From Candidatus Thorarchaeota archaeon (lineage in GTDB: Archaea; Asgardarchaeota; Thorarchaeia; Thorarchaeales; Thorarchaeaceae): a stretch of 64,000 nucleotides of DNA. The notes below the pieces were generated by a model. It did no database searches. It had not been told where the DNA came from and saw only the letters and a list, made by a program, of their open reading frames with translations. The stretch's first letter is position 1. Each line of letters begins with the position of its first letter. Both the position numbers and the translations under genes were made by a program. Of the stretch, positions 35,559 through 39,238 are shown one piece after another. The stretch lies in contig JAGXKG010000001.1 in the NCBI GenBank assembly GCA_018335335.1, positions 1 to 64,000 on the forward strand, in the 5' to 3' direction.

Positions 35559-35679
35559 TAAATAACTCATACCATGCCTATAAGGAGCATTCCCATACAC
35601 ATTCAATGTCATAGTATCGAATGAGTTCATTACTAGGCGGAAAGCTTTATGACGACATAGACTTCAGTTGATTTTGAAT

Positions 35680-35812
35680 GGGCCGGTTGCCTAGCCCGGA
35701 TAGGGCACCAGCCTTCTATAGGTCGCCAAGGTGGCCTGAAGAAAGTTGGATTTCGAGGGTTCTTGGCCTTTGATTTCCAAAGGCCAGCCCAAAAGTCCCT
35801 CCCGGCCCGCCA
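35680..35812 (+). tRNA. tRNA-Arg (UCU) with two introns
   Basis: The acceptor strands GGGCCGG (35680-35686) and CCGGCCC (35802-35808) pair perfectly, with G discriminator and encoded CCA. The D-stem is GCCT/GGGC. The anticodon stem CCAGC/GTTGG only forms if about 25 bases (35719-35743), which fold as a hairpin, are removed after the loop CTTCTA; this is the canonical 37/38 site. The T-stem GAGGG (35755-35759)/CCCTC (35797-35801) only forms if a second intron of about 30 bases (around 35763-35792, with an 8-bp stem GGCCTTTG/CAAAGGCC) is removed from the T-loop, leaving TTCAAGT. Exact borders may vary by a few bases. Confidence 0.85.
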
Positions 35813-38665: not shown

Positions 38666-38771
38666 GCCTCGGTGGCCAAGTGGTTGAAGGCGTCTGCTTC
38701 GTAAGCAGAAAACCGCGGGTTCGAATTCCATCATAAAATATGTGTGGACGAAACTCCCGCCCGGGGCTCCA
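38666..38771 (+). tRNA. tRNA-Thr (CGU) with T-loop intron
   Basis: The acceptor is GCCTCGG (38666-38672)/CCGGGGC (38761-38767) with T discriminator and encoded CCA. The D-arm is GCC...GGC, and the anticodon stem TCTGC/GCAGA surrounds TTCGTAA (anticodon CGT, 38700-38702) without an intron there. The T-stem GCGGG (38715-38719)/CCCGC (38756-38760) needs removal of about 29 bases (near 38726-38754) from the T-loop, which then reads TTCGAAT. Without that removal neither the T-stem nor the acceptor fits a cloverleaf. Confidence 0.85.
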
Positions 38772-39120: not shown

Positions 39121-39238
39121 GCGGAGGTTACCAAGTCAGGCCAAAGGTGCTAGACCGAGGCTCTAGAGTGTTGAAGTAGCCTTTCAACATGGGCACTCTC
39201 GTAGGAGTCCGCGAGTTCAAATCTCGCCCTCCGCACCA
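39121..39238 (+). tRNA. tRNA-Leu (GAG) with intron in the variable region
   Basis: The acceptor GCGGAGG/CCTCCGC is perfect, with A discriminator and CCA (39236-39238). The D-arm with CAGGCCAAAGG is typical of Leu. The anticodon stem CTAGA (39150-39154)/TCTAG (39162-39166) encloses CCGAGGC, anticodon GAG; position 33 is C instead of the usual U. The T-arm is GCGAG-TTCAAAT-CTCGC. Between the anticodon arm and the T-arm there are 44 bases, against about 15 expected; about 29 of them (near 39167-39196) contain a hairpin TGTTGAA/TTCAACA flanked by AGTG/CACT and are best read as an intron, which leaves a normal class II variable arm CTC-GTAG-GAG. Confidence 0.8.

Follow-up and report, generated by a model that had tools for sequence, protein, structure and literature searches.

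A tRNA-Arg(UCU) gene of Thorarchaeota with a canonical anticodon-loop intron and a predicted T-loop intron

Results

Anatomy of the tRNA-Arg(UCU) locus

The window, by which we mean the whole 64,000-nucleotide stretch of DNA analysed here, carries on its forward strand a tRNA-Arg(UCU) gene that extends from the 5' strand of the acceptor stem at 35680 to an encoded CCA ending at 35812. The first exon (35680-35718, tRNA positions 1-37) contains the anticodon UCU at 35715-35717 and is kept in relatives. It is followed by a 25-nt intron at position 37/38 (35719-35743), a second exon with positions 38-56 (35744-35762), a 30-nt intron in the T-loop at position 56/57 (35763-35792), and a third exon with positions 57-73 and the CCA (35793-35812). 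Exons 2 and 3 were assigned from the sequence and from ARAGORN run on the spliced form. The first intron rests on the sequence, an intron-removal solver, an energy evaluation and its exact absence from the syntenic gene of a relative (G011), and the second on the sequence, ARAGORN on the spliced form, the energy evaluation and a set of related introns described below. Removal of both introns leaves a 78-nt tRNA that ARAGORN calls tRNA-Arg(tct), with 7 of 7 acceptor pairs, 5 of 5 T-stem pairs (GAGGG/CCCUC), the anticodon loop CUUCUAA and a 7-nt T-loop, UUCAAGU, which fits UUCRANN. An earlier note on this DNA had given the isotype, the anticodon, two introns with their positions and approximate sizes, and the coordinates of the gene, all of which are right, the coordinates to the base, and had described the acceptor and T-stems as perfect once both inserts are taken out, as they indeed are.

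The same note had warned that standard tRNA finders could miss such a gene, and two of them do: at the unspliced locus there is no ARAGORN call, even with introns allowed, and no Rfam match at the gathering threshold. ARAGORN again reports nothing when only the T-loop insert is retained in the sequence. Chance does not account for the locus: with the intron-removal solver it scores 23.2, as compared with at most 15.4 in 200 first-order Markov shuffles and at most 8.7 in 200 random segments of the window, save one segment at 24.5 that we interpret as an intact tRNA gene elsewhere in the window. The unspliced RNA is also predicted to fold more stably than its shuffles (z = -5.4, 200 shuffles). 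Some 30-40 bp upstream of the tRNA, at 35637-35651 on the same strand, lies a putative BRE/TATA-like promoter, GCGGAAAGCTTTATG; the syntenic Arg(UCU) orthologues examined (G001, G002, G004, G006, G007, G011, G015, G021) all have this sequence, or one much like it, at 36-43 bp upstream.

Intron borders and folding

The first intron lies one nucleotide 3' of the anticodon, the canonical position, and its borders form a strict bulge-helix-bulge (hBHBh') with an outer helix CCAGC/GUUGG, a central helix CUUC/GAAG, bulges UAU and AAA of 3 nt each, and an inner helix of at least 7 bp. At the second intron, G51-U54 (GGGU) pairs with GCCC of the intron to give the central helix, the bulges are UCU and AAA, and a 9-bp inner helix carries the apical pentaloop AUUUC; this motif is classed as relaxed (HBh') because it is without an outer helix. 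The inspection of intron borders for bulge-helix-bulge motifs that had been proposed for this gene thus gives a strict motif at 37/38 and a relaxed one at 56/57. The T-loop intron motif and the T-stem compete for pairing, and the energy evaluation places the spliceable conformer (-58.7 kcal/mol) and the closed-T-stem conformer (-58.5 kcal/mol) at nearly equal values.

Presence and absence of introns in orthologues

We compared the gene of the window's genome (G000) with that of a genome of the same genus (G001) and with syntenic genes of further relatives, orthology being confirmed by a neighbouring radical-SAM gene, deacetylase-like gene or small ORF. The congener keeps both introns and all stems, and the tRNA is 96% identical between the two genomes while the flanks are only 75% and 67% identical. 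Outside the genus, the syntenic gene of G011 has no intron, those of G007, G021 and G002 have the 37/38 intron alone, and those of G004, G006 and G015 (L057, L055, L056) combine a D-loop intron with the 37/38 intron. Relatives without introns show the predicted spliced form, and the G007 orthologue, which is without the T-loop insert, has the same T-loop UUCAAGU. From this pattern it follows that, among the orthologues examined, the Arg T-loop intron is confined to the window's genus. First-pass matches in G008:C117, G007:C208, G009, G016, G019, G024 and G035 proved to be tRNA-Arg(CCU) genes and were left out of the orthologue set.

Related T-loop introns

Many genera of the family also have a 30-nt intron at 56/57 in their tRNA-Lys(CUU), and other genera lack precisely this insert. 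Ten 56/57 introns, one from Arg and nine from Lys, are all 30 nt long and align without gaps; the 9-bp inner helix is kept although 8 of its 9 pairs have changed in both partners, their covariation score was reached by 0 of 500 shuffles, and in all ten the 3' end pairs to G51-U54 with 3-nt bulges. The Arg intron of G000 and the Lys(CUU) intron of G001 are identical at 29 of 30 positions. When either of the two is compared with the remaining 56/57 introns, 11-24 of 30 positions agree (11-23 for the Arg intron), and the near-identity of the Arg and Lys pair points to intron transfer. Its direction, though uncertain, was most likely from Lys to Arg, which is the simplest reading of these sequences. 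The uncertainty comes from the Lys(CUU) gene of G000 itself, which today carries another T-loop intron, at 59/60.

An alternative, which concerns the origin only and which we regard as unlikely, is that the Arg T-loop intron arose independently and came to resemble that of Lys through structural constraint on 30-nt 56/57 introns. Length, pentaloop and a 3' GCC motif are common to 56/57 introns of many isotypes, and some likeness between Arg and Lys would therefore be expected without transfer; the gap between the identities just given and the confinement of the Arg intron to one genus among the orthologues examined both argue against independent origin and for transfer.

With a covariance model of the T-arm plus intron (R1), 56/57 introns came to light in several more tRNAs of the family, namely those for Val, Arg(GCG), Glu, Phe, Tyr, Ala and Met(CAU); in the wider phylum the model picked up introns at 58/59 or 59/60. 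No match above 44 bits falls outside the window's own family, and in 16 other archaeal genomes scores did not exceed 37 bits. The raw tally of this model, 121 of 227 phylum genomes, is not an intron count, because real T-loop introns (matches of about 50-60 nt) are mixed in it with intronless T-arms (28-nt matches).

Two further observations concern tRNA-Lys(CUU). In G094 and G017 (L183, L195), a different intron at about 53/54-54/55 of the T-arm stands in place of the T-loop intron of relatives. In G128 and G022 (L192, L194), partial 5' pieces of the gene, with a 30/31 intron and no recognisable 3' end, are repeated near fuller copies, and may be degenerate duplicates or attachment-site remnants.

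Other tRNA introns of the genome

Among the tRNA loci of G000 found by Rfam and DNA searches, 37 genes were decoded, several by hand, and 23 of them have introns; borders at repeated bases may shift by a few positions. Seven T-loop introns were decoded, at 56/57 in Arg(UCU), at 59/60 in Lys(CUU), Lys(UUU), Thr(CGU) and Ser(CGA), and at 58/59 in Met/Ile(CAU) and Ser(UGA). The earlier note had placed T-loop introns mainly in some Crenarchaeota, and here the context needs correcting: the host is a member of the Thorarchaeota (Asgard), where such introns are not rare. Its lineage was read from the alignment of the endonuclease alpha subunit described below; the radical-SAM neighbour of Arg(UCU) had found no relatives among named genomes. 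One of the seven lies 2.9 kb downstream of Arg(UCU), in tRNA-Thr(CGU) (38666-38771, forward strand), whose 29-nt intron at 59/60 (38726-38754) has a strict bulge-helix-bulge; this gene gives a partial Rfam match and is missed by ARAGORN. A tRNA-Leu(GAG) gene with an intron near the anticodon or variable arm follows at 39121-39235 on the forward strand.

The tRNA-Lys(CUU) genes of G000 (L215, G000:C1:159559-159752, reverse strand) and G001 (L170) each contain four introns, at 22/23, at 30/31, in the variable region, where the cut sites are uncertain, and in the T-loop (59/60 in G000, 56/57 in G001). Three introns per tRNA has been stated as the archaeal maximum (PMC8450103, PMC4033280).

Among introns of tRNA-Lys(CUU) and T-loop introns across the family, 55 lie at 30/31, in the variable region or at 56/57, and 47 of these have an apical pentaloop of the form R-N-Y-N-C, as compared with 4 of 25 at 37/38 (Fisher p = 3e-9, to be read with caution given the relatedness of the sequences and a motif definition that followed their inspection). 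The pentaloop is conserved though the intron stems have changed almost completely. We suggest, tentatively and with more doubt than conviction, that Thorarchaeota might carry a mobile family of noncanonical tRNA introns of about 30 nt, marked by this pentaloop (typically AUUUC or ACUUC) and moving between isotypes and between sites at 30/31, in the variable region and in the T-loop. If so, the four introns of a single tRNA-Lys gene would result from such movement, and a conserved loop on changed stems would mean that some factor of mobility or processing recognises the loop as such.

Is this the only tRNA for AGA?

The earlier note had named a second complete tRNA-Arg(UCU) gene, combined with a lack of expression of the present locus, as a finding that would count against its reading. 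A search of G000, a MAG of 176 contigs and 97% completeness, with the spliced sequence found no further tRNA-Arg(UCU), and the other Arg tRNAs decoded have the anticodons UCG, CCG, CCU and GCG. The locus is thus very probably the cell's only gene of this kind, a strong claim that stops short of absolute since, at this completeness and number of contigs, an intronless second Arg(UCU) could sit on missing sequence. Among the Arg codons of 45 window ORFs, AGA is the most frequent, with 221 of 15,251 codons.

These observations bear on whether the gene could be a pseudogene, killed by the T-loop insertion, with AGA being read by another tRNA. The silence of ARAGORN and Rfam at the locus and the incompleteness of the MAG would fit such a reading, yet we consider it very improbable: another Arg(UCU) was not found in a genome where AGA is common, the congener preserves introns and stems while the flanks diverge, and the same type of insertion recurs in many isotypes with base-pair compensation.

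Splicing endonuclease and ligase

The earlier note had also pointed to the endonuclease subunits of the genome, and these turn out to be of the heteromeric type, with a predicted broad-specificity loop. G000 has two EndA paralogues, alpha (G000:C18:27123) and beta (G000:C1:235855), as well as a gene for the ligase RtcB. A search of 119 phylum genomes detected EndA in every one, usually in the form of two genes. The closest matches of alpha are Candidatus Thorarchaeota records and A. pernix 3p1z, the latter in a near full-length alignment of 182 bits, and across the Crenarchaea-specific loop IRKPKSPDF of alpha aligns without gaps to VEKPRGADF of A. pernix, as judged from the alignment alone. 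In 30 of 30 phylum members examined, Lys48-Pro49 is invariant and followed by Lys or Arg (K-P-[K/R]), in keeping with the loop type, in which a conserved Lys precedes Pro or Val and then Lys or Arg; the catalytic residues Tyr131, His139 and Lys170 are likewise invariant. When beta is aligned to M. jannaschii EndA, Ala stands at the position of the catalytic His, while Tyr and Lys are kept. The beta gene (L041:5565-7435) overlaps the start of the next, ATPase-like gene, a possible operon. Experiments on the A. pernix and ARMAN-2 enzymes have linked this loop to broad specificity (PMC6379350, PMC12397907), and, if the link carries over, the endonuclease of the window's genome would be of broad specificity as well.

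We also consider it very improbable that the gene is real but spliced at 37/38 alone, with the T-loop hairpin retained after maturation to lengthen the T-arm: the T-stem is able to form around the insert, but in syntenic and paralogous genes that lack the insert the T-loop is precisely the one predicted for the spliced tRNA, the 3' end of the insert keeps the G51-U54 helix and 3-nt bulges in all ten aligned introns, and the cell has an endonuclease of the predicted broad-specificity type.

Discussion

We are highly confident that the tRNA-Arg(UCU) gene at this locus, in all likelihood the only one of the cell, is functional and that its transcript is a pre-tRNA from which proteins splice two introns. 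For this, the alpha-beta endonuclease would cut both introns between the second and third nucleotide of the 3-nt bulges, and the Lys-Pro-Lys loop may be what lets it cut the T-loop intron, the motif of which is without an outer helix. RtcB would then join the exons, and the excised introns would be released in circular form or be degraded. Gain of the T-loop intron presumably took place in the window's genus, most likely by copying of the homologous 56/57 intron of tRNA-Lys(CUU).

Asgard archaea are relatives of eukaryotes. T-loop introns, the exchange of introns between tRNAs and the "Crenarchaea-specific" endonuclease loop, to the extent that exchange and loop function can be read from sequence, are now placed in this group, and the orthologue series shows single introns coming and going. 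Common tRNA finders overlook essential tRNAs in genomes of this kind, and "missing" tRNAs in Asgard MAGs may therefore be unrecognised multi-intron genes.

The two-intron arrangement of Arg(UCU) has known precedents, both in the introns of Thermoproteales and, since 2024, in noncanonical Asgard tRNA introns, while the four introns of tRNA-Lys(CUU) and the apical pentaloop shared by noncanonical introns are possibly new. As cited in PMC4090602, Pyrobaculum islandicum tRNA-Pro(UGG) has introns at 25/26, 37/38 and 56/57 (Sugahara 2007), and it thus resembles Arg(UCU) in joining a 37/38 and a 56/57 T-loop intron, with motifs of the bulge-helix-bulge type, in one archaeal gene; it differs in belonging to the Thermoproteales, as opposed to Asgard archaea, and in having the third intron at 25/26 where the Thorarchaeota gene has two in all. 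In the Asgard Atabeyarchaeia and Freyarchaeia, 92-95% of tRNA genes are reported to contain introns, often multiple and at noncanonical positions (PMC11291895); these are other Asgard lineages, and the main text of that report makes no mention of T-loop introns or the splicing endonuclease. The (alpha-beta)2 endonuclease of A. pernix (PDB 3P1Z/3AJV; PMC6379350, PMC12397907) likewise consists of two paralogous subunits with a K-P-[K/R] loop in the catalytic one, whereas the proteins of the window's genome are Asgard and known here from sequence, their heterotetramer assembly and activity being predicted. Lastly, Thermoproteales are known to have introns at 56/57 and 59/60, tRNAs with three introns, and transposition of introns (PMC4090602, PMC4033280), and there, as in our case, near-identical introns occur in tRNA genes of different isotypes; here, the two genes are Arg(UCU) and Lys(CUU) within one Thorarchaeota genus, and both introns lie at 56/57.
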